Shown here in pieces: positions 5,438 to 35,437 of a stretch of 35,775 nt of DNA. The stretch covers positions 1 through 35,775 of the forward strand of contig CAIRGJ010000030.1 of the NCBI GenBank assembly GCA_903878085.1. Direction: 5' to 3'. The stretch is from an uncultured Hyphomicrobiales bacterium. Lineage in GTDB: Bacteria > Pseudomonadota > Alphaproteobacteria > Rhizobiales > Xanthobacteraceae. The notes under the pieces are model-generated. The model did no database searches. It saw only the letters and a program-made list of their open reading frames with translations, and was not told the origin of the DNA. Position numbers and translations under genes: made by a program. Every line of letters starts with the position of its first letter. Position 1 is the stretch's first letter.

Positions 5438-6640
5438 ATGCGTAAAACGGCCCTGATTTTGGCTGCCGGCTTCATCGGTCTGGCGACCCCGGCCTTGGCC
5501 GCCCCCCGCTGCCAGAACACCGGCAGTTTCGAGAAGTGGGTCGAGCAGTTCAAGAAGGACGCCGCCGCCCAGGGCATCTCGCCCAAGGTGATCGCTGCCG
5601 CGTCGCCTGAACTGACCTTCGACGAATCGGTGATCAAGCGCGATTCCGGCCAGGCGGTGTTCACGCGCACCTTCCTCGACTTCTCCAAGCGCCTGCTCGG
5701 CGGCCAGCGCATCCCCAACGGCATTGCCAAGATGAAAGAGCACGCGGCGCTGTTCGCGCGCATCGAGAAGGCCTACGGCGTGCCGCCCGAAGTCATCACC
5801 GCGGTCTGGGGCCTGGAAAGCGATTACGGCGCGCTGTTCGGCAAGTTCAAGATTTTGCCGTCGCTGGCGACGCTGGCCTATGACTGCCGGCGCGGCGATC
5901 ACTTCCGGCCTGAGCTGATGGATGCATTGCGCATCGTGCAGCGCGGCGATCAGCGCATCGACGAAATGAACGGCAACTGGGCCGGCGAATTCGGCGGCAT
6001 GCAGTTCACGCCGTCGAACTACATCAAATACGGCGTCGACTTCGACGGCGACGGCCGCCGCGACCTGATCAAGAGCACCCCCGACACGCTGGCCTCCGCC
6101 GCCAATTATCTCAAGAGCATCGGCTGGCGCCGCGGCGAACCTTGGCTGCAGGAAGTCGAAGTCCCCGCCACCATGCCGTGGCAGGAAGCCGATCTCGAGA
6201 TCCAGCACCCGCGCTCGAAATGGGCGGCCTGGGGCGTCAAGGCGGTCAACGGCACGCTGCCGAAGGACACCATGCAGGCCTCGCTGATCCTGCCGATGGG
6301 CCGTCTCGGTCCGGCCTTCCTCGCCTACCCGAACTTCAAGGTCTTCATCGACTGGAATTCCGCCTTCGTCTATTCGACGACGGTGGCCTATTTCGCCACC
6401 CGGCTCGGCGGCGCGCCGCCGGTGCGCGAAGAAGGCGCCGCGCGCGTCGAACAGCTTTCGACTGAGCAGATCGTGGCGCTGCAGACGCTGCTCAATGCGC
6501 AGGGCTATAATATCGGCGAAGCCGATGGCAAACTCGGCGCCGGCACCCGCAAGGCAGTCAAGAAGGCGCAGCTCAAATATAATCTGCCGGCGGATTCCTG
6601 GCCGACCTCGGAACTGCTCTCGCGCATGCAGGGCAGCTGA
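5438..6640 (+). CDS. Lytic murein transglycosylase, MltB family (first of tandem pair)
   Basis: The 400-residue enzyme has a signal peptide (RKTALILAAGFIGLATPALA, cleaved before APRCQ), an SLT_2/MltB catalytic domain (about 25-325) and a C-terminal peptidoglycan-binding domain (about 335-395, QTLLNAQGYNIGEADGKLGAGTRKAVKKAQ). Glu127 in VWGLESDYGA is the predicted catalytic acid. GEFGGMQFTPSNYIKYGVDFDGDGRRD matches the substrate-cleft region. It cuts glycan strands to 1,6-anhydro ends in the periplasm. There is no lipobox, unlike E. coli MltB, so it is probably soluble. The frame is open from 5390, but the signal sequence fixes ATG 5438. A short hairpin (arms TCGGGGC/GCCCCGA, 5400-5418) lies in the leader just before the ribosome site. 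Confidence 0.92.
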   Translation: MRKTALILAAGFIGLATPALAAPRCQNTGSFEKWVEQFKKDAAAQGISPKVIAAASPELTFDESVIKRDSGQAVFTRTFLDFSKRLLGGQRIPNGIAKMKEHAALFARIEKAYGVPPEVITAVWGLESDYGALFGKFKILPSLATLAYDCRRGDHFRPELMDALRIVQRGDQRIDEMNGNWAGEFGGMQFTPSNYIKYGVDFDGDGRRDLIKSTPDTLASAANYLKSIGWRRGEPWLQEVEVPATMPWQEADLEIQHPRSKWAAWGVKAVNGTLPKDTMQASLILPMGRLGPAFLAYPNFKVFIDWNSAFVYSTTVAYFATRLGGAPPVREEGAARVEQLSTEQIVALQTLLNAQGYNIGEADGKLGAGTRKAVKKAQLKYNLPADSWPTSELLSRMQGS

Positions 6641-6668: not shown

Positions 6669-7901
6669 ATGCGAACGACAGCGCTGAAACTGACGGCGGC
6701 CGCGATCGGCGCGCTGTGGGCGGGACAGGCCTTCGCCGCCACCTGCCACAACACCGGCAGCTATGAGCGCTGGCTCGACGCTTTCAAGAAGGAAGCCATC
6801 GCGCAGGGCATTTCGGCCAAGGTGATTGCCGACGCCTCGCCGCAGATGACCTTCGATCCGGCGATCGTGAAGCGCGACCACGGCCAGTCGGTATTCCAGC
6901 AGACCTTCATCCAGTTCTCCGACCGCATGACCGGCGGCGGCCGCATTCCCAACGGCCAAGCCAAGATCAAGCAGCACGCCGCGCTGTTCGCCAAGATCGA
7001 AGCGCAATACGGCGTGCCGGCGCCGGTGCTGGTGGCGTTCTGGGGCCTGGAGAGCGACTTCGGCGCCAATTTCGGCAATTACAAAATCCTCAGCGCCATC
7101 GCGACGCTGGCCTATGATTGCCGCCGCCCCGAATTCTTCCGCACCCAATTGTTCGATGCGCTGCGCATCATCGAACGCGGCGACCAGCGCGTCGAGGACA
7201 TGGTCGGCGACTGGGCCGGCGAGTTCGGCGGCCTGCAGTTCACCGCCTCCGACTATCTCAAGAACGCCGTCGACTTCGACGGCGACGGCCGCCGCGATCT
7301 CATCAAGAGCATCCCCGACACTATGGCGTCGGGCGCCAACTTCCTGGTCAGCCTCGGCTGGCAGCGCGGCCAGCCCTGGCTGCAGGAAGTTTTGGTGCCC
7401 AAGGAAATGCCGTGGGATCAGGCCGACCTGACGATCCAGCTTCCGGTGTCGCAATGGGCGGCCTGGGGCGTGAAAGCCGCGCATGGCTCGCTCGCCGCCG
7501 CCGATCTGCCGGCCTCGATGATCCTGCCGATGGGCCGCACCGGCCCGGCCTTTCTGGTGTATCCGAACTTCAAAGCCTTCCTCGGCTGGAATTCGGCTTA
7601 CGTCTATTCCACCACGGTCGCCTATTACGCCACCCGCATCGCCGGCGCGCCGGCTTTGAACCGCAGCGGCGCGGCCAGCATCGTGCCGCTGACGGCGCAG
7701 CAGATGACCGACCTGCAGCGCGCGCTGATCAAACAAGGCTATGAAGGCGTCGGCGAGGTCGACGGCAAGTTCGGCGCCGGCACCCGTGCCGCCGTCAAGA
7801 AGGCGCAGATGAAAGTCGGCCTGCCAGCGGATTCCTATCCGACCGTCGAACTGCTCGACAAGCTCGGCGTCTCGCGCGCACCGGCTGCGCCGAAGCCGTA
7901 A
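6669..7901 (+). CDS. Lytic murein transglycosylase, MltB family (second of tandem pair)
   Basis: The 410-residue protein is a close paralogue of the gene 28 bases upstream, with the same order: signal peptide (RTTALKLTAAAIGALWAGQAFA), a Cys-His-Asn-Thr-Gly-Ser N terminus, an SLT_2 domain with catalytic Glu128 in FWGLESDFGA, and a peptidoglycan-binding domain (ALIKQGYEGVGEVDGKFGAGTRAAVKKAQ). It carries a short extra Ala/Pro tail (SRAPAAPKP). The frame is open back to 6495 inside the first gene, but only ATG 6669 gives the signal sequence. Only a weak Shine-Dalgarno (AGAAAG) is seen, so translation may depend on the upstream gene. The pair looks like a local gene duplication that has diverged, with both copies keeping active-site residues. 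Confidence 0.92.
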   Translation: MRTTALKLTAAAIGALWAGQAFAATCHNTGSYERWLDAFKKEAIAQGISAKVIADASPQMTFDPAIVKRDHGQSVFQQTFIQFSDRMTGGGRIPNGQAKIKQHAALFAKIEAQYGVPAPVLVAFWGLESDFGANFGNYKILSAIATLAYDCRRPEFFRTQLFDALRIIERGDQRVEDMVGDWAGEFGGLQFTASDYLKNAVDFDGDGRRDLIKSIPDTMASGANFLVSLGWQRGQPWLQEVLVPKEMPWDQADLTIQLPVSQWAAWGVKAAHGSLAAADLPASMILPMGRTGPAFLVYPNFKAFLGWNSAYVYSTTVAYYATRIAGAPALNRSGAASIVPLTAQQMTDLQRALIKQGYEGVGEVDGKFGAGTRAAVKKAQMKVGLPADSYPTVELLDKLGVSRAPAAPKP

Positions 7902-15243: not shown

Positions 15244-15335
15244 CGTTTCGCTCCCCAAAAAACCGGCTGCGACTCTGTTGTTCGCGAGCCGGACTTGTTC
15301 GAGAGTTTGGCTTATCTATTCAAGGACGGCTATCG

Positions 15336-15409
15336 TGCACTGCGGTAGTGCAAACGCCGGTGTGGGCGGATTTGGCGTCGCCAAATAGTGGGCTAAGCTG
15401 TTGCGCAAC
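15336..15409. promoter_or_regulatory. Cluster of three palindromes between the hydrolase and phnD
   Basis: Within the 220-base divergent region lie TGCACT-GCGGT-AGTGCA (15336-15352), ATTTGGCG-T-CGCCAAAT (15370-15386) and GTTGCGCAAC (15400-15409). All are perfect inverted repeats. They are good candidates for regulator sites controlling the importer, the hydrolase or both. No recognisable Pho box was seen. Confidence 0.5.
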
Positions 15410-15463
15410 GATAACGCCGGTGCGTGGGCAGACCCCCGCAAGGCCCGGTGCAGGGAGGCGACC

Positions 15464-16438
15464 ATGGTTCGGCAATTCAACACCATCGCGAGCATCGTTA
15501 CGGCGCTTATCATGGGCACCGGATTCACCATGTCAGCGCAGGCACAGGATTGTCCGCGCGGCGATCTCGACAAGGCCTACTGCGACCGCAACGGCGATCT
15601 GGTCGCCGACACGCCGGCCGATCCGAAACTGCTGGTCAACCCGTCGACGCTGATCTTTGCCTATACCCCGGTCGAAGATCCCGCGGTCTACACCAAAGTG
15701 TGGGACGGCTTCATCAAACACCTGGAGAAGACGACCGGCAAAAAGGTTGTATTTTTCCCGGTGCAGTCGAACGCCGCGGAAATCGAGGCGATGCGCTCCG
15801 GCCGCCTGCATATCGCGGGCTTCAACACCGGCTCCAATCCGATTGCGGTGAACTGCGCGGGCTTCGTGCCCTTCGCCATTATGGCCGGCAAGGACGGCGC
15901 TTTCGGCTACGAGATGGAAATCATCGTGCCTGCCGACTCAGCCATCAAGACGCCGGCGGACATCAAGGGCAAGAAGCTCGCCTTCACCGCGCCGACTTCG
16001 AATTCCGGATTCAAGGCGCCGTCGGCGCTGCTCGCATCGGAATTCAATCTCGAAGCCAAACGCGACTACGAGCCGGTGTTCTCCGGCAAGCATGACAACT
16101 CGGTGCTCGGCGTCGCCAACAAGGATTACGACGCAGCCGCCATCGCCAACGAAGTGATGTTCCGCATGTTCGAACGCAACGTGGTGGACAAGGCGAAGAT
16201 CCGCACGATCTACAAGTCGGAAACTTTCCCGACCACCGGCTACGGCGTCGCGCACAATCTCGATCCCAAGCTGGTCGAGCAGATCAAGCAAGCCTTTTTT
16301 ACGTTCAATTGGGAGGGCTCGAGCCTTCAGGCCGAGTTCAAAGGCAACGACAAGTTTGCCCCGATCACCTACCAGAAGGACTGGAGCGTGATCCGCAAGA
16401 TCGATGCGGCGAGCGGCGTAAAATACACTTGCAAGTAA
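15464..16438 (+). CDS. phnD: Phosphate/phosphite/phosphonate ABC transporter substrate-binding protein
   Basis: The 324-residue periplasmic protein has a signal peptide ([24 protein letters not shown]). The mature start [20 protein letters not shown] is typical of the rhizobial PhnD group and contains a cysteine pair. The ligand-binding body has [79 protein letters not shown] and [24 protein letters not shown] before ATG 15464 fixes the start. It is the first gene of a four-gene importer operon. Ligands in this family include phosphonates, phosphite and aminoethylphosphonate; which applies cannot be told. Confidence 0.93.
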
Positions 16439-16463
16439 AGCTGCTGCCGCCAGGGGGCGCTGC

Positions 16464-17312
16464 ATGTTGCGTATCAAAGGGCTGATCAAGCGCTATCGCA
16501 CTGGCGATCTCGCGCTCAAGGGCATCGACCTCGAGGTGCCGGACGGCCAGGTGATGGCGCTGATCGGACCGTCCGGCGCCGGCAAGTCGACCGTCATCCG
16601 CTGTATCAATCGTCTGGTCGAACCGACCGCCGGCTCGATTGCGCTCAACGACATCGAGATCGTCGGGCTCGGCAGTTCGCAATTGCGCCAGGCGCGCCGG
16701 CGCATGGGGATGATCTTTCAGGAATACGCGCTGGTCGAGCGTCTCACGGTGATGGAAAACGTGCTGAGCGGCAGGCTCGGCTATGTCGGTTTCTGGCAAA
16801 GCTGGCTGCGCAAGTTCCCACAATCGGACATCGACGAGGCCTTTCGGCTGCTGGCGCGCGTCGGCCTCGATCACATGGCCAGCAAACGCGCCGATGAATT
16901 GTCCGGCGGCCAGCGCCAGCGCGTCGGCATCTGCCGCGCCCTGATCCAGAATCCGGAATTGCTGCTGGTGGACGAGCCGACCGCCTCACTCGACCCGAAA
17001 ACCTCGCGCCAAATCATGCGGCTGATTAAGGAGCTGTGTGCCGAGCGCAAACTGTCGGCGATCATCAACATCCACGACGTCATGCTGGCGCAGATGTTTG
17101 CCGAGCGCATCGTCGGACTGAAGCAGGGCGAAATCGTCTATGACGGCCCGCCCGACAAGCTCACGCCCGAGGTGCTGACCTCGATCTACGGCGAGGAGGA
17201 CTGGTCGGCCACCATCCGTAAGGCCGACGAGGCAGACGAGCCTGCGGCGGACAATGTCGTGCCGTTCGAGCCTCCTTTGCCCAGCCGCGATCGCCTAGCG
17301 GGACTGACGTGA
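16464..17312 (+). CDS. phnC: Phosphonate-type ABC transporter ATP-binding protein
   Basis: The 282-residue ATPase energises the importer from the cytoplasmic side. It has Walker A GPSGAGKS (35-42), a Q-loop in [24 protein letters not shown] (typical of PhnC), the ABC signature [11 protein letters not shown] (about 146-156), Walker [14 protein letters not shown] and the switch histidine in NIHDVMLAQ. The C terminus carries an extra acidic, proline-rich stretch ([19 protein letters not shown]). It starts 25 bases after phnD, and its stop overlaps the first permease start by four bases. Confidence 0.96.
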
Positions 17313-18115
17313 GCATCGCGCTTGAGCCGCCGCGAACCTGGAAAAAGCCGCCGCTGATCAAGCGCGCATGGCTGCGCTGGATACTTGGCCTGGGCGCGGC
17401 GCTTTATCTCGCACTCGCCTTCGGCACCATCGACGTCAACTGGCACCGCGTCTGGGAAGGCCTGCCGCGCGGCGCGCAATTCATCAAGGCGTTCTTTCCG
17501 CCGGACTTCATCAGCCGCTGGGACGAGATCGCCGAAGGCATTGCCGAAAGCCTGTGGATGACGGTGGTGTCCACCGTGGTCGGCATCGCGATTTCGATTC
17601 CGGTCGGCATCGGCGCCGCGCGCAATATCGCGCCCGCGCCGGTTTATTATTTTTGCCGCGGCATTTTGTCGGTGTCGCGCAGCTTCCAGGAAGTCATCCT
17701 CGCCATCTTCTTCGTGAAATTGTTCGGCTTCGGCCCCTTCGCCGGATTCGTGACGCTGTCGTTTGCCACCATCGGCTTCTACGGCAAGTTGCTCGCCGAA
17801 GACATCGAGGACATGGACGCAAACCAGGCCGAAGCCGTGCGCGCGACCGGCGCCAGCTGGCTGCAGTGGATCAATTTCGGCGTGCAGCCGCAGGTGATGC
17901 CGCGCATGATCGGGCTTGGGCTGTACCGGCTCGACATCAATTTCCGCGAGTCGGCGGTGGTCGGCATCGTCGGCGGCGGCGGCATCGGCGCCACGCTTAA
18001 CACCGCGTTCGACCGTTACGAATTCGATTCCGCCGCGGCCATTGTGCTGATCATTATCGCCATCGTCATGCTGGTCGAATATTCGTCCGGATTCCTGCGC
18101 CGGTGGGTGCAGTGA
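17309..18115 (+). CDS. phnE: Phosphonate-type ABC transporter permease (first)
   Basis: The 268-residue inner-membrane permease has six or so hydrophobic segments and the conserved cytoplasmic coupling loop (EAA type) [24 protein letters not shown]. It ends with a segment [15 protein letters not shown] shared by PhnE proteins. Start codon GTG overlaps the phnC stop (GTGA), which points to translational coupling. With the second permease it would form a heterodimeric channel. Confidence 0.95.
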
Positions 18116-18927
18116 TGACGCCAGCCACCGTGCGCGTGAAGGTCTGGCAGCGGCGCGACCGCAAGTCCCAGCTTGCGATCTGGGCGGCCTGGCTGATCGC
18201 GACGGCGATCTTCGTCGCCTGCTTCCATCTCATTTCGGAAAAAACCATTTGGGATTTTGTCTGGGATGCGCCGGCCCAGGCCGGCGATCTCGGCGCCCGC
18301 ATGGTGCCGCCGGACTGGAAATACATTCACCAATTGTGGCGGCCGCTGTGGGATACGCTGAACATCGCCACGATCGGCACGTTGATGTCGATCGTGCTGG
18401 CGGTGCCGGTCGCCTATTGCGCCGCGCGCAACACCACGCCGAGCGTGACCTTCGTGCGGCCGATCGCACTGTTCATCATCGTGTCGTCGCGCTCGATCAA
18501 TTCGTTGATCTGGGCCTTAATGCTGGTCACCATTGTCGGCCCCGGCGTGTTCGCCGGCATCATTTCCATCGGCATCCGCTCGATCGGCTTCTGCGCCAAG
18601 CTGCTGTACGAAGCTATCGAGGAAATCGACGAGGCCCAGGTCGAAGCGGTGCGCGCCACCGGCGCAAGTGCGGCGCAGACCACAGTCTACGGCATCGTGC
18701 CGCAAGTGATGCCAGCCTTCGCTGGAATTTCGGTGTTCCGCTGGGACATCAATATCCGCGAGTCGACCGTGCTCGGCCTGGTCGGCGCCGGCGGCATCGG
18801 CCTCGAACTCAACGCCGCCATCACGCAGTTGTACTGGACGCAAGTCTCGCTGATGCTGCTGGTGATCATCGGCGCCGTGGTCGTCGGCGAATGGGTGTCG
18901 GCCAAAGTCCGCCACGCCATTATTTGA
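18115..18927 (+). CDS. phnE: Phosphonate-type ABC transporter permease (second)
   Basis: The 270-residue permease is homologous to the preceding one, with coupling loop [24 protein letters not shown] and the terminal RESTVLGLVGAGGIGLELN. ATG 18115 overlaps the previous stop by one base (TGATG). Two permease genes per operon is usual for rhizobial PhnCDE systems. No C-P lyase, phosphonatase or phosphite dehydrogenase gene follows, so the metabolic fate of the imported compound is encoded elsewhere. Confidence 0.95.
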   Translation: MTPATVRVKVWQRRDRKSQLAIWAAWLIATAIFVACFHLISEKTIWDFVWDAPAQAGDLGARMVPPDWKYIHQLWRPLWDTLNIATIGTLMSIVLAVPVAYCAARNTTPSVTFVRPIALFIIVSSRSINSLIWALMLVTIVGPGVFAGIISIGIRSIGFCAKLLYEAIEEIDEAQVEAVRATGASAAQTTVYGIVPQVMPAFAGISVFRWDINIRESTVLGLVGAGGIGLELNAAITQLYWTQVSLMLLVIIGAVVVGEWVSAKVRHAII

Positions 18928-19009
18928 GGCCGTGGCGGCCGCTTGTTCGCCTTGGCGCGCGGCGTGGACGCCGCTAAGGTCCGCGCCCAACAATGGGGCG
19001 GAGCAAAAA

Positions 19010-19942
19010 ATGAAGTCGAACACGAGCGCGGGGACAATCGACCCGCAGCATATTTCCGTCATCGAGGCGGTGCGGGGTTCCGGCATCCCGGTGCGGCTGA
19101 TGTACATCGAGTTGATCGACGGCGTCTACGCGCCGATCGGTCTGCGCCTACCGCCCGGCCCCGGCCCGTTTCCGCTGGTGATGTTCGCGTCCGGCAATGG
19201 CGGCGGCGGCATGGCGATGGTGCGCGACTACACGCAGAATGTGGGCTGGACCCAGGAGCAATTCCTGAAAGCGGGTTATGCCGTCGTCTGGCTGCGCTAC
19301 CGCGCCGAGGTCGACTATGCCTACGACAAGATCGGCAAGCTCGTCGAAGACAGGCGCCAGAACCGCCAGTTGTTGAACCGCGGACCGCTGGAATACGAAG
19401 ACGTCATCTCAATCACCCAATATCTCAAGACGTTGCCGGAGATCGACGGCAACCGCATCGGTTACATGGGCATGAGCCATGGCGGCGAAATGGCGCTCAA
19501 GATTGCGTCGGAATATCACGGCATCCGGGCAATGGTGGCGAGCGAGCCGGCCGCGCACGAATTCCTGCGGCTCAAGCCGGACAACACGGCGCGCATCAAT
19601 CCGGCGACCGGCCTGCTCGATGTCGAAAAAATGCTGATGCGCGAGGCGAACAAAGTTCGCCCCCGCATTACCGAGGATGTCGCCGTTGCGCGCGTGCAGC
19701 CGATCGATACGCCGATCTTCGTGCAGGGCCGCAACACCGACGAACTGCAGGGCATTTTCCGCGTCTGCTACGATCTGCTGGTCGAGCTCGGCAAGGACGC
19801 CAAGTGGCAGTCCTACGAACACGACGTTCACGGCTTCGTCTATGTGCGAAGAAACGACAAAGGCGACTACGCGCCGGACGCCGTGCAGATTCAGGCGGTG
19901 AACGACTCGATCGCGTTTTTCGATCGGTATCTGGCGGCGTGA
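19010..19942 (+). CDS. Alpha/beta hydrolase, dienelactone hydrolase/prolyl-oligopeptidase-like
   Basis: The 310-residue protein has a central alpha/beta hydrolase fold: PFPLVMFASGNGGGG as oxyanion region, an elbow RIGYMGMSHGGEMAL with Ser in GMSHG, a probable acid in the TPIFVQGRNTDELQ loop, and His in YEHDVHGFVY. It has no signal peptide. ATG 19010 has a GGAG-like site upstream; the open frame begins earlier, but that part is arginine-rich and unlikely. It lies 83 bases after the importer and may belong to its operon. A fragment resembling its last codons recurs at 23705-23757. Confidence 0.8.
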   Translation: MKSNTSAGTIDPQHISVIEAVRGSGIPVRLMYIELIDGVYAPIGLRLPPGPGPFPLVMFASGNGGGGMAMVRDYTQNVGWTQEQFLKAGYAVVWLRYRAEVDYAYDKIGKLVEDRRQNRQLLNRGPLEYEDVISITQYLKTLPEIDGNRIGYMGMSHGGEMALKIASEYHGIRAMVASEPAAHEFLRLKPDNTARINPATGLLDVEKMLMREANKVRPRITEDVAVARVQPIDTPIFVQGRNTDELQGIFRVCYDLLVELGKDAKWQSYEHDVHGFVYVRRNDKGDYAPDAVQIQAVNDSIAFFDRYLAA

Positions 19943-20000
19943 CGATCGGCGCGCGGTCTCATCACGTCTGCTCTCGACCTCAGGCGGATATCGACGACAA

Positions 20001-21047
20001 CTACGCCGCCCTCATCCCCTTCCGGTAAAGCGCCCACAGCGTCCGCAGCAGACCCGGCTGCGTCATTTTGCCATAGCTGTCCGGCATCGCCGCCGACAGC
20101 CGGCGGAAGGCGCGCGGCAGTGCGTGATAGGGGATGCCCGGAAAGGCATGATGCGTCGCGTGATAGCGCAAGCCGACCGGCGCCCACAATTCAGTCAAGA
20201 GGCTGCCCGGAATATCGTGGGAGTCGGCCGTTTGCGCGGCCTTGTCCATCGGCTCGCCGGAGCTCTCGTAAGAATGCGCCGCGAGCGTGCGCAGGCCGTC
20301 GATGACATTGATCGCCGCCATGAGGAGATACCAGAGCACGGCGGCGCGGACGGGGATGAAGGCATCGACGATTGGCGCATGCCCTTTTCCAAAAACGGCT
20401 GCCCACGCTTCGGGATTATGCGCCAGGAACCCCAAGCCGATTAGTATCGTCCACATCGCCAGCAGCAGCCAGGTGTCGCGGCGCACCACGCGGATCAACG
20501 CCGCGCTCGCCGTGCGCCGATAGGCGCGATTGATGGTGATGGCGGACGCATGCTCGATCAGCCAGATTTCAAAACGTCTGGAAAAAAGCCCGATCGGGGC
20601 GAGCAGCAGAAAGCGTATGACGAGAAGCGCCGGTATGATTAAGGCCTGCAATATATACACCGTCGTCAGCGCGGCCGAGCGCGCGAACGGCAGATATTCG
20701 GGATCGTTCCTGGTGCCATAGGTCGCCACCCGATGGTGGTCGAAATGGACTTGCGCATACGTGAAAGACGGCAAGAGCAGTGGAAATCCGGCGAGCGCAT
20801 TCCACGCCGCCTCGAAGCCGGGCAAGCGGTGACGCTGGTGGCTGATCTCATGAGTGAACGCAACCGCGCGGTAGAGCGCAAAGACGGCGACCACGGCCGA
20901 CGCAATGCCGATCGGTGAGCCTAACGGTTCCGCGGCGGCGACGGCGAACGCGGCCCAACCGAGCGTGGCGCTGAGCAGCAGATCCGCCCAATAGATCGCC
21001 GGGCGGACCGCGTGCAGATCGGTAAGCGCGGGGAGTGGCTGGGTCAT
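20001..21047 (-). CDS. Membrane fatty acid desaturase
   Basis: The 348-residue membrane protein has the three histidine clusters of di-iron desaturases: HEISH (66-70), HFDHH (101-105) and a C-terminal HATHH within GLRYHATHHAFPGIPYHALP. Hydrophobic hairpins lie before and between them. Such enzymes introduce double bonds in acyl chains or hydroxylate lipids or carotenoids; specificity is not evident. The frame is open to 21164, but the ATG at 21047 starts just before the first conserved part. It is convergent with the upstream hydrolase and divergent from the GNAT-like/DUF4118 gene, and its lower-GC surroundings suggest acquisition together with its neighbours. Confidence 0.88.
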   Translation of the reverse strand: MTQPLPALTDLHAVRPAIYWADLLLSATLGWAAFAVAAAEPLGSPIGIASAVVAVFALYRAVAFTHEISHQRHRLPGFEAAWNALAGFPLLLPSFTYAQVHFDHHRVATYGTRNDPEYLPFARSAALTTVYILQALIIPALLVIRFLLLAPIGLFSRRFEIWLIEHASAITINRAYRRTASAALIRVVRRDTWLLLAMWTILIGLGFLAHNPEAWAAVFGKGHAPIVDAFIPVRAAVLWYLLMAAINVIDGLRTLAAHSYESSGEPMDKAAQTADSHDIPGSLLTELWAPVGLRYHATHHAFPGIPYHALPRAFRRLSAAMPDSYGKMTQPGLLRTLWALYRKGMRAA

Positions 21048-21251
21048 TGGGGCAACACGATAGGCGCCAGATGAAATTTGAGAATTGATAATTTCTAAGT
21101 GAGGACGGGGTAAGGCGTCCAGATGCTGCTCATGCAGCCTGCGCGGGCACTGCGGCATAGTCAAAATGGGGTCATTTATGGGATGTGCTGAGTTTTGACA
21201 TAAGACAAAGGCGGAACACTGAGGCTCCTATAATTTCATTCAAAGGATAGA

Positions 21252-21297
21252 TTGACGGCCTTGATTATGCGAATATTGTCCGCTTGGGGATGACGTT
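21252..21297 (+). promoter_or_regulatory. Sigma-70-like promoter and ribosome site for the GNAT-like/DUF4118 gene
   Basis: TTGACG (21252-21257) and TATTGT (21274-21279) are 16 bases apart. A GGGGATGA ribosome site follows before ATG 21298, implying a leader of only about a dozen bases. A perfect TATAAT at 21229-21234 has no -35 box at proper distance. Confidence 0.5.
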
Positions 21298-22398
21298 ATG
21301 TTTGTGTGCCGTGTGCCGAGAGATTCGGCTGAGTTCGTGCGTCTATTGAATGTTGAGCAAAAGCTGTTCGAGGGACTTTCGATTCCTCCGGCGATGGCGC
21401 AAAATTTCTTTCGGCTGCGACCAGAACTCTTCACCGCCATTATCGCATCCGATGATTCTGTAGCGGCCTATACGATCGCTTTGCCGTTGCAGCCAAGGTG
21501 GGCTGAAGCATTCATCGCCGGCGATATTACCGAGACCGAACTGACGCCGGGCATGCTGCTCGAACGGAATCAAAGCCTCGAAGGGGCCAATATCTACATC
21601 GCGTCTGTCGTGGTTTCCGACCGATATGACCCGCTGACGAAATTGGTCTTAATCGCCGGCCTGCTTTCATGGCGGATCAAGCAGCTGCAATCCGTCGCCG
21701 TCAGTCAATTGTCGGTCATCATGACGCCGGTGACGGAACAAGGCGAACGATTGGCGCGGTTTGCCGGCGCCACATTATTGAACAGCGGCATCAATCGAAA
21801 AGATGGTTATGCCGTTTGCGGCCGTGAAGTTACATCGGGCTTTCTCAGCCGGGCGGCTACCGCAATGGAAAGGTGCCTGAACGGCGCCGTTATTAGAATC
21901 AACTTCGATGCCCCGCTGAACGCGGGCCAGCCGGAAGCCGCCGCAATCAACGTAGAGGCCGGTGTCAAAGCGAAGGCGTCGTCGCCGGCTCACGCTTTTG
22001 GCGGCATGGTCTCGTTTGCCAACCGCGGCCTACGCAATGCGCTTGCGTCGCTTCGCATCGGGGGCGTTGGCGTGTCCATTGCAATCATGGCGATGACGAC
22101 CGCGGCGTTGTTCGATTTAAATACTTTCCTCGCGGTCGATCATTTGGGTCTTGTTTATGCGCTTCCGATTATCTTGATAGGCCTAAGATACGGCACCATG
22201 AATGCGATCATGGCCTCGATCTTCGGCGGCCTGGCTGCGGCGTTTTTCCTCTACGAACCGGTATTCAGCTTCTACATCGACGATCCTCACGATATCTTGG
22301 AAGTCGCTCTGATTTTCGTGATGGCATTGGCGACAAGTCATTTCGTCGGCAAACAATCGATGCTGGCCATGGGGCGGCTATGGGGTCGCCGGTCGTAA
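21298..22398 (+). CDS. Fusion of a GNAT-like domain with a DUF4118 membrane domain
   Basis: The 366-residue protein has two parts. The first about 190 residues look like an acyltransferase-fold (GNAT-like) domain: VPRDSAEFVRLLNVEQKLFEGLSIPPAMAQNFFRL, AAYTIALPLQPRWAEAFIAGDI, and ANIYIASVVVSDRYD as a typical core strand, but the acetyl-CoA loop is degenerate. A linker leads to four transmembrane helices (about 265-360; VGVSIAIMAMTTAALFDL, LGLVYALPIILIGLRYG, IMASIFGGLAAAFFLY, LEVALIFVMALATSHFVG). These match DUF4118, the membrane module of KdpD-type sensor kinases. No kinase domain follows. The product may sense or modify something at the membrane; the function is unknown. Base composition is less GC-rich than in flanking genes. 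Confidence 0.65.
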   Translation: MFVCRVPRDSAEFVRLLNVEQKLFEGLSIPPAMAQNFFRLRPELFTAIIASDDSVAAYTIALPLQPRWAEAFIAGDITETELTPGMLLERNQSLEGANIYIASVVVSDRYDPLTKLVLIAGLLSWRIKQLQSVAVSQLSVIMTPVTEQGERLARFAGATLLNSGINRKDGYAVCGREVTSGFLSRAATAMERCLNGAVIRINFDAPLNAGQPEAAAINVEAGVKAKASSPAHAFGGMVSFANRGLRNALASLRIGGVGVSIAIMAMTTAALFDLNTFLAVDHLGLVYALPIILIGLRYGTMNAIMASIFGGLAAAFFLYEPVFSFYIDDPHDILEVALIFVMALATSHFVGKQSMLAMGRLWGRRS

Positions 22399-22476
22399 CA
22401 ACTTGTTGCGCCGGCCGGGTCGCGCTGATCAATTAGTCAATAAGGCGCTGCCTGCCTTCCAATATTGTGATCGTTG

Positions 22477-23649
22477 ATGACGACATTCCTCTATATTTGG
22501 CTTGCCGCGCAGGCGGTGTCGGTAAGTCTTGTTTGGCTTTTCACGATCGGCCTTGGCCGGACGGTCAACCTCACAAGCGCGCCGCGATCCGTCGTCATTG
22601 TCGCGGTTAAAGGTCCGGATCGCGAGTTCGAACATTTTCTGACCGGTCTATTCGCGCAGGATTACCCGGCGTTTTATCGGGTGATTTTTGCCGTCGAGTC
22701 CGCTGACGATCCCGCGATGGCGCTCATCCAAGCCTATCAAGCAAGGCAACCGGAGCAGGTCTCGTTCGTCGTTGCCGGCGCCTCGCAGGACGAGGGGCAA
22801 AAGACCGCAAACCTGCGTGCGGCGCTAACGCAAATAACCCCTGCCGACGACGTTGTCGTTTTCGCCGACGCCAATATTCGGCCGGCCTCCGACTGGCTTC
22901 AGCGGCTTGTCGAGCCGCTTGTCGGCGGCAAAGCCGACGTCGTGTCGGGCTTTTCTTGGGTCGTGATAAAAAATCGCACATTGGCTTCGTATGTGCTGGC
23001 CTCGATGTCCGCCGCTGTTGTCACGATACCGCGGCTGCCGCTGCTCAATGCGGCGTGGGGCGGCTCCACCGCTCTCACGCGAGAGCGGTGCGAGGCCTTG
23101 AACCTGGGCGCTGCCTGGAAAGGGACGTTGTCCGACGATTTGCATTTGACCGTATTGGCCCAGCGTGCCGGTTACACGATCGCCGCGCCGCGCGAGATTC
23201 TGCTGCGCAGCTTTATTGCTGCCGATGGCTTTACCAATATCGTCGCGGAAGCGACGCGATGGTTGCTGCTGTTCCGCATCTATTTGCCGGCAACCTTTGC
23301 AATCGCAATGATCGGACTGACTTTCATCGCCGCCGGATGGATTGTCGCGTTCGCCAGTCTGTTCACTCAGCGGCAGGAGGCTGCAACGATCCTGCTTATT
23401 GCATTGGCGTTGATGTTGCTCCGGACGGCCGGACGCGCCCTCGTCGTTGCGCGGCTCTGGGGCAAGGCCGGGCTGAGGGAAAACCTGGGCTTTTTTATTT
23501 TGGACCCATTCATCGCGCCGATGGCGGCGATCTTGTCCGCTGCTTGCGGCTGGTTCGCGCTGTTTACAAAGCGAACGACCTGGGCCGGCATCACCTACGA
23601 GATCACAGGCCCGCAGCGCGTCAGGGTCGTATCGCGGCGCGCGCCTTAG
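22477..23649 (+). CDS. Membrane glycosyltransferase family 2 protein
   Basis: The 390-residue protein starts with a membrane helix, followed by a GT-A catalytic domain: VVIVAVKGPDREFEHFLTGLFAQDYP, VVVFADANIRPASDWL (metal/sugar-nucleotide acidic residues), WGGSTALTRERCEAL, LSDDLHLTVLAQRAGY (catalytic acid) and EATRWLLLFR in the place of the usual Q/R-x-x-RW box. Three or four membrane helices follow. This layout resembles ceramide glucosyltransferase and HpnI-like GT21 enzymes acting on lipids. A TTG lies immediately before ATG 22477 and no strong ribosome site is visible. The final codons run into a duplicated scar (23650-23757). The substrate is unknown; the neighbouring desaturase is consistent with lipid modification. 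Confidence 0.82.
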   Translation: MTTFLYIWLAAQAVSVSLVWLFTIGLGRTVNLTSAPRSVVIVAVKGPDREFEHFLTGLFAQDYPAFYRVIFAVESADDPAMALIQAYQARQPEQVSFVVAGASQDEGQKTANLRAALTQITPADDVVVFADANIRPASDWLQRLVEPLVGGKADVVSGFSWVVIKNRTLASYVLASMSAAVVTIPRLPLLNAAWGGSTALTRERCEALNLGAAWKGTLSDDLHLTVLAQRAGYTIAAPREILLRSFIAADGFTNIVAEATRWLLLFRIYLPATFAIAMIGLTFIAAGWIVAFASLFTQRQEAATILLIALALMLLRTAGRALVVARLWGKAGLRENLGFFILDPFIAPMAAILSAACGWFALFTKRTTWAGITYEITGPQRVRVVSRRAP

Positions 23650-23757
23650 CCGTTACCGCGCCCGCGGTGGGGCTCGCGAGATACTTGATTAAAGCATCGC
23701 CCGCCAGGCCGTGAACGACTCGATCCCGTTTTCGATCGGTGTTTACGCGCCTGACGA
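23650..23757. other. Duplication scar: two abutting gene-end fragments
   Basis: Bases 23655-23695 match 24442-24482 (3' end of the ModA-like gene) at 37 of 41 positions, with weaker similarity to about 23704. In translation the fragment reads ALIKYLASPTAGAV against ALIKYLASPAASAV. Bases 23705-23740 match 19892-19928 (3' end of the hydrolase gene) at 34 of 37 positions with one deleted T, and similarity resumes over the TGACGAT at the stop. Both are in the same orientation as their sources. The order (right end, then left end) is that of a tandem-duplication junction. Confidence 0.8.
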
Positions 23758-24006
23758 TTCCAATGCGTCGGTTGAAGCCGCCTCAGATTTCCCACCCGAC
23801 CGCACGCTTTCGAGGACGAACAGCCGGATTGCCGACGACAGGTTGGCTTGTTGGCGGCGCCCGTCGATCCCGCCAACGACGTTTGCCAATGTGTCGCGCC
23901 GGTTGTGGGCGATTTCTTTCAGCCCCAGCCAGAAGGGCTCTTCAAGACTGACGCTGGTTTTATGTCCGGCGAGAATGATTGATCGTTTGACGATGGTTGA
24001 TTTCAT
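23743..24006 (-). CDS. Ribbon-helix-helix domain protein
   Basis: The 87-residue protein has the small RHH_4-type domain common in Rhizobiales: KRSIILAGHKTSVSLEEPFWLGLKEIA, then GGIDGRRQQANLSSAIRLFVLESVR. It is predicted to bind DNA as a dimer, with an N-terminal strand contacting the major groove. ATG 24006 has AAAGGGGAAGGA upstream; the longer open frame upstream is not family-like. Its last codons (ESSGA) overlap the duplication scar in antisense, so the native C terminus may have been altered. Targets are unknown. Confidence 0.85.
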   Translation of the reverse strand: MKSTIVKRSIILAGHKTSVSLEEPFWLGLKEIAHNRRDTLANVVGGIDGRRQQANLSSAIRLFVLESVRSGGKSEAASTDALESSGA

Positions 24007-24404
24007 GGTCCTTCCCCTTTTACGCAGATGCGGTGGTTGAAAAAAGTCGGAGTATTGCGTGCCCAACTCTGCGCTACCGAGCGCTACGGTCGCTACGCGG
24101 CAACCGCCACGGCTTGGCAAAAGCCGCCACAATATCGATCTTGAAAGTATCTAGATGCCGACGACATCAGACGAGGGCCGCTAGCGGGGACCAAATCGCT
24201 CAATTCGCTTGGGATTATCCTGCGAACTTTCGCTATGGCCCCTAGTGCAAGGTCAACCGCATCACGGCGCGCAGGTTCCAAATTACAGCCCGAATCGTGT
24301 TGCGATTTTTTGCCGCAGCCTGGCCAGGCAGGATCGAAGGAGCGGTCGTCGAAGCGTCCTCGACCGCGCCAAGCGCCATGTCCGTTCGGCAAACGGCGTG
24401 AATA
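24007..24404. other. Long stretch without a recognisable gene
   Basis: About 400 bases between the divergent RHH start and the 3' end of the ModA-like gene. Both strands hold only short frames with low-quality composition. A minus-strand frame near 24240-24380 ending in RAVIWNLRAVMRLTLH may be a gene remnant, but I cannot assign it. The stretch probably holds the RHH promoter and decayed DNA related to the duplication. Confidence 0.6.
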
Positions 24405-25160
24405 TCACCGCGCCGGTGGCTCCAACCCCTTCGCCTTGAACACCGCGCTCGCGGCCGGGCTCGCGAGATACTTGATCAAAGCGGCAGCCGCCGCCGGCTG
24501 CTTCGCCGTCGCGCCGACCGCGGCGGTCTGCATGACCGTGTTTTGCAGCGAAGCTGGCACCGGCCCGACCAGATCGACACCGGGCGTCGCCAAGATATCG
24601 CTGACCAGCACGATGCCGAGTTCGGCCTCGCCTTTGGCCACCGCCACCGTGGTCATCGCGCCACCCGGCTGAAGCTGGAGTTTGTCCTTGAGCGTGTCGG
24701 CAAGGCCGAGACGTTCGAGCTGCTTGGTGAGATAGACGCCAGTCTGGCTTTGCTTGGTGTAGGTGATCGATTTCGCCGCCAGCAGCGTGCGCTTGAACGC
24801 CTCCTCGCTGCTAATGTCGGGCTTGGCCGCGCCGGCTTTCACCGCGACGCCGATGCTGGTGCTGGCAATGTTCGTCACCGTTGCCGCGTTCACCTTGCCT
24901 TCCTTGCTCAGGGCCTCGATCTGCGGCGTGGCGAAGATTGCGACGTCGAAATCGCCTGACTCGATCCGCTGCTTCTGACCCGGATAAATCTCGAAGTGGA
25001 AGACGACCTTGTCGCCGCTGTCGCGCTCGAACTGCGGCAGCAACGCTTCAAACGCGGCGCGCAGACCGGGAATGCAAAGAACCTTGATGTCGGCAGCGCG
25101 CGCCTCGAGCGCAAAGCACATCACGAGCGCCGCTGCGGCGGCGCGCCAAAGCCATCCCAT
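24405..25160 (-). CDS. ModA-like periplasmic molybdate-family binding protein (orphan)
   Basis: The 251-residue protein has a signal peptide (LWRAAAAALVMCFALEARAA) and the fold of the molybdate-binding protein group: IKVLCIPGLRAAFEALLPQFERDSGDKV, DVAIFATPQIEALSKEGKV, ITYTKQSQTGVYLTKQLERLGL, VAVAKGEAELGIVLVSDIL and a C-terminal AAALIKYLASPAASAVFKAKGLEP. The usual serine-rich first ligand loop of true ModA (SSL) is replaced by IPGLRAAF, so molybdate may not be the ligand. No modB or modC is nearby. GGAGG before ATG 25160 supports the start. Part of its 3' end is duplicated at 23655-23704. Confidence 0.85.
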   Translation of the reverse strand: MGWLWRAAAAALVMCFALEARAADIKVLCIPGLRAAFEALLPQFERDSGDKVVFHFEIYPGQKQRIESGDFDVAIFATPQIEALSKEGKVNAATVTNIASTSIGVAVKAGAAKPDISSEEAFKRTLLAAKSITYTKQSQTGVYLTKQLERLGLADTLKDKLQLQPGGAMTTVAVAKGEAELGIVLVSDILATPGVDLVGPVPASLQNTVMQTAAVGATAKQPAAAAALIKYLASPAASAVFKAKGLEPPAR

Positions 25161-26894: not shown

Positions 26895-26902
26895 TTCACC
26901 GT

Positions 26903-26988
26903 TCATCCCCGCGAAAGCGGGGATCCAGTGCGTAAGCACGCGGCTTGGGATTGTGGCCCTGGATTCCCGCTTTCGCGGGAATGAGCGG
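26903..26988. repeat. Palindromic repeat pair, CCCCGCGAAAGCGGGG family, copy 1
   Basis: ATCCCCGC-GAAA-GCGGGGAT near the chvI stop is followed after about 35 bases by a related hairpin, TTCCCGC-TTTC-GCGGGAA, with shared GGATCCAG and CTGGATT borders. A second copy is at 35367-35437. It lies inside the chvI-chvG operon, and its right end includes the likely chvG start codon. Confidence 0.88.
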
Positions 26989-35320: not shown

Positions 35321-35366
35321 GAGCCTAGCCCTATGACATGCCGGAAAAACGCGCAAATCCCTCCCG

Positions 35367-35437
35367 TTCGCCCCCGCGAAAGCGGGGACCCAGGCCGTTG
35401 AAGCACTGGATTCCCGCTTTCGCGGGAATGAGCGGTG
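35367..35437. repeat. Palindromic repeat pair, CCCCGCGAAAGCGGGG family, copy 2
   Basis: CCCCGC-GAAA-GCGGGG and TTCCCGC-TTTC-GCGGGAA are again separated by a short spacer with CCCAGG and CTGGATT borders and end in ATGAGCGG, as in copy 1 at 26903-26988. It lies between the divergent GT39 and lepA genes. Confidence 0.9.

Follow-up and report, generated by a model that had tools for sequence, protein, structure and literature searches.

A possible tandem-duplication joint made from the ends of two convergent genes in an uncultured Hyphomicrobiales bacterium

How did fragments of the 3′ ends of two genes, one encoding an alpha/beta hydrolase (H) and the other a ModA-like substrate-binding protein (M), come to lie together in swapped order between a glycosyltransferase gene and an RHH_4 gene? 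The question is raised by a short scar in the window (the whole stretch of DNA analyzed, 35,775 nt). From H to M, the window carries genes for a desaturase (−), a DUF4118 protein (+), and a glycosyltransferase (GT2; +), which we call set X, followed by the scar and the RHH_4 gene (−) (Table 1). M scored 72.2 bits against NCBIfam TIGR01256 modA (cutoff, 62.5), and GT2 scored 95.1 bits against TIGR03472, below the cutoff of 310. GC3 was 0.78 in the desaturase gene, 0.65 in the DUF4118 gene, 0.72 in the GT2 gene, and 0.66 in the RHH gene, and it was 0.82 to 0.85 in H, M, RR, and HK. The desaturase value says little by itself because the native CREG gene also has a GC3 of 0.78. The phnDCEE genes (0.82–0.84) look native by GC3.

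Table 1 Features of the window discussed in the text
Feature	Position	Strand	Basis and remarks
hydrolase2, intact, 337 aa	14230..15243	−	Adjoins M in G009 and L089
H, alpha/beta hydrolase (DLH/BAAT_C-like), intact	19001..19942	+	Pfam, relatives; start codon uncertain
Possible remnant of the ancestral 9-bp H/M spacer	19943..19951		7/9 as in G066
Fatty acid desaturase, first gene of set X	20001..21056	−	PF00487; start codon uncertain
DUF4118 protein, second gene of set X	21298..22398	+	PF13493; GC3 0.65
Glycosyltransferase (GT2; GT21-like, distant to HpnI), third gene of set X	22474..23649	+	PF13506
M′, fragment of the 3′ part of a ModA-like gene	23655..23704	−	37/41 to 24442–24482; 42/50 if extended to 23704
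H′, fragment of a hydrolase 3′ end	23705..23758	+	Core 23705–23740; frameshift; source 19892–19946
RHH_4 gene (Y)	23743..24006	−	PF13467; ATG at 24006
M, ModA-like/SBP_bac_11 substrate-binding protein, intact	24405..25160	−	Pfam, relatives

The DUF4118 protein has approximately 250 residues ahead of its DUF4118 domain without a Pfam match at E ≤ 0.001. No recognized gene lies in 24007–24404, the approximately 400 bp that separate M from the RHH gene, and when 24010–24440 was compared with the other genomes of the genus, two matches of 29–31 bp and none longer were found. Elsewhere in the window, 5491–6619 and 6728–7856 form a direct repeat of approximately 1.1 kb (73% identity), probably tandem paralogs. 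Two further regions, 26899–26988 and 35364–35435, are related, and each also aligns with its own reverse complement, as a dispersed palindromic repeat would; a repeat of this type is present also in one of the related M loci (L089, at 2466–2538).

Extent of the scar

Bases 23655–23695 matched 24442–24482 at 37 of 41 positions (ungapped, direct, 57.2 bits), and bases 23705–23740 matched 19892–19928 in 34 of 37 columns (two mismatches and one 1-base gap, direct, 51.8 bits). The matches that the preliminary description reported, and the orientation shared by both pieces with their sources, were thus recovered in full. BLAST carried the second match on to 23758/19946 (82% over 55 columns), with the tail (23741–23758) matched more weakly than the core. 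Both scores were higher than the best obtained from 1000 dinucleotide shuffles of 23600–23800 against the rest of the window (36.5 bits). Within the genome of the window (64 contigs), 23600–23800 had no DNA match at E ≤ 0.001 beyond the two sources and itself.

The pieces stand in direct orientation and swapped order (M end, then H end), so that the 3′ end of a segment is joined to its 5′ end, as in a tandem duplication. The 9 bp between them (23696–23704) agree with the continued M sequence at five of nine positions, and at most one base at the joint (C at 23705) fits both sources. Outside the pieces, identity was at the level expected by chance: to the left, 10/37 for the M piece and 3/25 for the H piece; past 23758, 4/30. 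The M′ reading frame is open over 50 bp, whereas H′ is frameshifted by a 1-base deletion. Both neighboring genes had been described as ending inside the scar; the RHH stop codon does (23743–23745), but GT2 stops 5 bp before the match. The last four codons and the stop of the RHH frame are read from H′ antisense, and apart from this contribution the fragments probably have no function of their own.

The H/M boundary in related genomes

The comparison covered 43 genomes of the genus, the window's own included and many of them incomplete drafts, together with a GTDB scan for M loci. H was present in 12 of the 43 genomes (E ≤ 1e-40), again counting the window's. Close relatives of M (≥72%) were found in two genomes of the genus besides the window's (G066 and G009); the GTDB scan added a third locus (L089) at 69%, its other two loci being the G066 and G009 contigs. 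G066, a draft of 74% completeness, was the only other genome with H beside M. There, the two genes are convergent and only 9 bp separate the H stop (4793) from the M stop (4803). The preliminary description depends on the two source genes having once been neighbors, and in G066 they are; the ancestral adjacency is drawn from this one genome. It had also envisaged close genomes with and without the intervening genes: H and M adjoin without them in G066, but among the 43 genomes none besides the window's was seen to have them in between.

The alignment of the window with G066 ran through H to 19952 and resumed at 24409 on the M side; hence, everything between these points sits at this single H/M boundary. 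In G009 and L089, M lies directly beside hydrolase2, and H was found neither in the G009 genome (E ≤ 1e-40) nor in the L089 stretch examined. The interval between hydrolase2 and M (15244–24404 in the window) contains no gene in G009 and L089, only H in G066, and phnDCEE, H, set X, and the RHH gene in the window. No phn genes were present on the 8.5-kb G066 contig. We infer that the direct hydrolase2–M adjacency came first and that H arrived before the split of G066 and the window lineage; phnDCEE, placed between hydrolase2 and H, and the 4.45 kb at the H/M boundary would be later additions in the window lineage. Loss of H in G009 and L089, instead of its gain elsewhere, is possible.

The remaining 10 genomes of the genus with H showed a different neighborhood. 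In all 10 stretches H was beside phoH, with a DUF6481 gene nearby in nine, an RHH_4 gene in six, and holB in five; in those six, the RHH_4 gene followed H by 2–4 kb and was oriented relative to it as in the window, at this other locus. The H genes of the window and G066 lie at the hydrolase2/M site instead, presumably by relocation. A radical-SAM gene, considered as a possible occupant of the H–RHH interval, was detected in 8 of the 43 genomes (E ≤ 1e-100), and G026 was the only one of the ten whose H stretch contained it.

Source of the pieces and the proposed duplication

H′ scored 33 against the window's H, 17 against that of G066, and 19 against that of G008. Over 50 bp, M′ scored 34 against the window's M, 32 against that of G009, and 26 against that of G066; its identity was 37/41 to the window's M vs. 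34/41 to that of G009, whose match to the scar was 81% over 57 bp. An A at 19902 was common to the scar and the window alone in a comparison with six relatives, and a C at 24462 was common to the scar and the window alone, with G in G066, G009, and L089. The scar agreed with the window against G066 at 19924–19927 and at 24448, 24460, 24464, 24471, and 24480 (G009 being the same as the window at the latter five), and against G009 at 24444, 24450, 24474, and 24476. Five sites went against the window: 24449 (C in the scar, G066, G009, and L089; T in the window's M), 24456 (G, as in G009), 19897 (C, as in G008), 19931 (T, as in G066 and G008), and 19939 (C, as in G008). We attribute these to substitutions that M and H underwent once the copies had been made, or to repeated change, and the C at 24449, retained in the scar and lost in M, may be what is expected of a sister copy. 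On the simplest reading of the alignments, the pieces would be sister copies that arose from the window's H and M after the G066 split; H′ groups clearly with the window's H, and M′ with the window's M over that of G009 by a slim margin.

Our leading explanation, in which we have moderate confidence, is that a tandem duplication took in the 3′ ends of H and M where these converge, and that 23655–23758 (104 bp) is its joint. The preliminary description had already recognized a joint of the right end of M to the left end of H in the same orientation, and this part of it is retained; the duplicated unit it proposed, the whole 19.9–24.5 kb segment with a filler, is not. Because H and M abut in G066, a unit of approximately 140–150 bp suffices, instead of one of 4.6 kb.

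In the ancestor, H and M would have been convergent and 9 bp apart. A stretch of 138–147 bp, comprising the last 51 bp of H, the 9-bp spacer, and the last 78–87 bp of M, would have been duplicated head to tail through an illegitimate junction sharing no more than about one base, and the resulting order would have been H–M′/H′–M. The desaturase, DUF4118, and GT2 genes would then have been placed between H and M′, at the cost of the final 37 bp of M′; the H′/M boundary would have received the RHH gene. The redundant H′ and M′ would have decayed, while H and M remained whole.

The two copies of the boundary differ in what they kept of the spacer. After the H stop at the left boundary, CGATCGGCG was the same as the G066 spacer at seven of nine positions, a level reached by approximately 1% of the 9-mers of the window. 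On the H′–RHH side, two of nine spacer positions were kept, although the first four bases after the stop were equal to those following the window's H. This difference weakly suggests that set X may have entered a boundary copy that never held the RHH gene, which is weak evidence against a duplicated filler.

Several points count against the small duplication. It calls for independent insertions into both copies of one boundary, which is not parsimonious, and, the pieces being short, order and orientation could agree with a duplication joint by chance in approximately one of eight cases. The intermediate without inserts (H–M′/H′–M) was not found among the 43 genomes of the genus, many of them incomplete drafts, or at the three GTDB M loci.

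Alternative histories and known events

It is possible, though doubtful, that one strain carrying H–X–M and another carrying H–RHH–M gave rise to the present order (H–X–M′/H′–RHH–M) in one step, by unequal illegitimate exchange or via a circle that carried an M′/H′ joint and recombined through H. This single step would give each copy its different gene set and leave the spacer remnant on the X side only, and the divergence of the pieces (4/41 in M′ and 3/37 columns in the H′ core) could be divergence between strains. However, no strain with set X only or the RHH gene only at the boundary was found among the 43 genomes; of the 11 other genomes with H, only G066 has M adjoining, and it lacks the inserts. 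In addition, the allele H–X–M would have to lack the final 37 bp of M.

Rather unlikely is an arrival of set X and the RHH gene as one fragment, with the end stretches of M and H copied into the GT2/RHH joint by microhomology template switching or end joining. In its favor, the pieces are short, and the DUF4118, GT2, and RHH genes share a low GC3 (0.65–0.72). Among 397 genomes of the order searched at E ≤ 1e-30, the stretches fetched around five GT2 homologs included one (in G174) with a convergent RHH_4 gene approximately 0.6 kb away, but four without an RHH_4 gene. Relatives of the RHH gene were present in 42 of the 43 genomes of the genus, often in several copies, which also speaks against a joint arrival, and the fit of order and orientation to a duplication joint would be a one-in-eight coincidence. 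Comparisons with the desaturase and GT2 genes revealed no donor of set X: at E ≤ 1e-20 the desaturase and GT2 genes each occurred in 1 of the 43 genomes (the window's own), the best GT2 match in the 397 genomes of the order was 33% identical, and the best matches in plasmids were 28% for GT2 (nine records) and 42% for the desaturase (three records).

The version of the preliminary description, in which H–RHH–M (or another filler) was duplicated as a whole and set X replaced the left filler, we consider improbable. It needs one insertion fewer, H′ keeps the first four bases of the window's own post-stop sequence, and the RHH_4 genes downstream of H in 6 of the 10 phoH–H stretches have the same relative orientation, albeit at the other locus. 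The spacer, kept at seven of nine positions on the left vs. two of nine at H′–RHH, argues against it. The window's RHH was 67% identical to a relative in its own genome (C26) and 70, 67, and 65% identical to those of G066, G009, and G026, respectively; with distances about the same, it did not arise by recent copying of the resident gene. We also considered that the RHH gene had traveled with H from the phoH–H locus; the orientation agrees, but the window's RHH gene is not markedly closer to those copies.

An origin of the fragments from other paralogs, as the preliminary description had offered as an alternative, or from a foreign H/M pair or an assembly chimera, is very improbable: although the genome has numerous ModA-like genes (seven matches at E ≤ 1e-40, counting M itself) and the scar agrees with relatives against the window at 24449, 24456, 19897, 19931, and 19939, DNA comparison with the genome yielded nothing further at E ≤ 0.001, there was no better-matching gene pair in the genome or in 60 relatives, and the window's own genes scored best, while a chimera would equal its sources and the pieces differ from theirs by 8–10%.

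Among known events, the short-junction type of tandem duplication in bacteria has a join point at which the right end meets the left end in direct orientation with little or no shared sequence. The scar is like it in all of these respects. It departs from it in the very small size proposed for its unit (approximately 0.15 kb), in its age and decay, and in that each copy of the boundary now holds other genes. In templated insertion, or short-patch illegitimate recombination, short stretches of local DNA are copied into a joint. The scar shares the short local copied DNA, but a duplication joint accounts better for pieces that lie in swapped order and keep the orientation of their sources. Events of this kind are known, and this one is well preserved. 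The scar being short and old and the sample small, a duplication ahead of both insertions is preferred only tentatively to strain exchange, a circle, or template switching.

The hydrolase2–M interval also resembles a horizontal-transfer hotspot between conserved neighbors, with variable content in the four genomes compared. As a tentative and rather speculative extension of the small-duplication reading, the micro-duplication itself may have seeded the hotspot: a tiny duplication of two convergent gene ends would make the boundary breakable without cost, and each copy would then capture a different foreign set. The scar is an ordinary but legible trace of the arrival of foreign genes at this spot. 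It may document the growth of an insertion hotspot, with simpler states in G009/L089 and in G066 and the scar as a stage on the way from the G066 state to that of the window. Should joints of this sort prove common at hotspots, short duplications would become testable as a route for harmless gene uptake between convergent neighbors.
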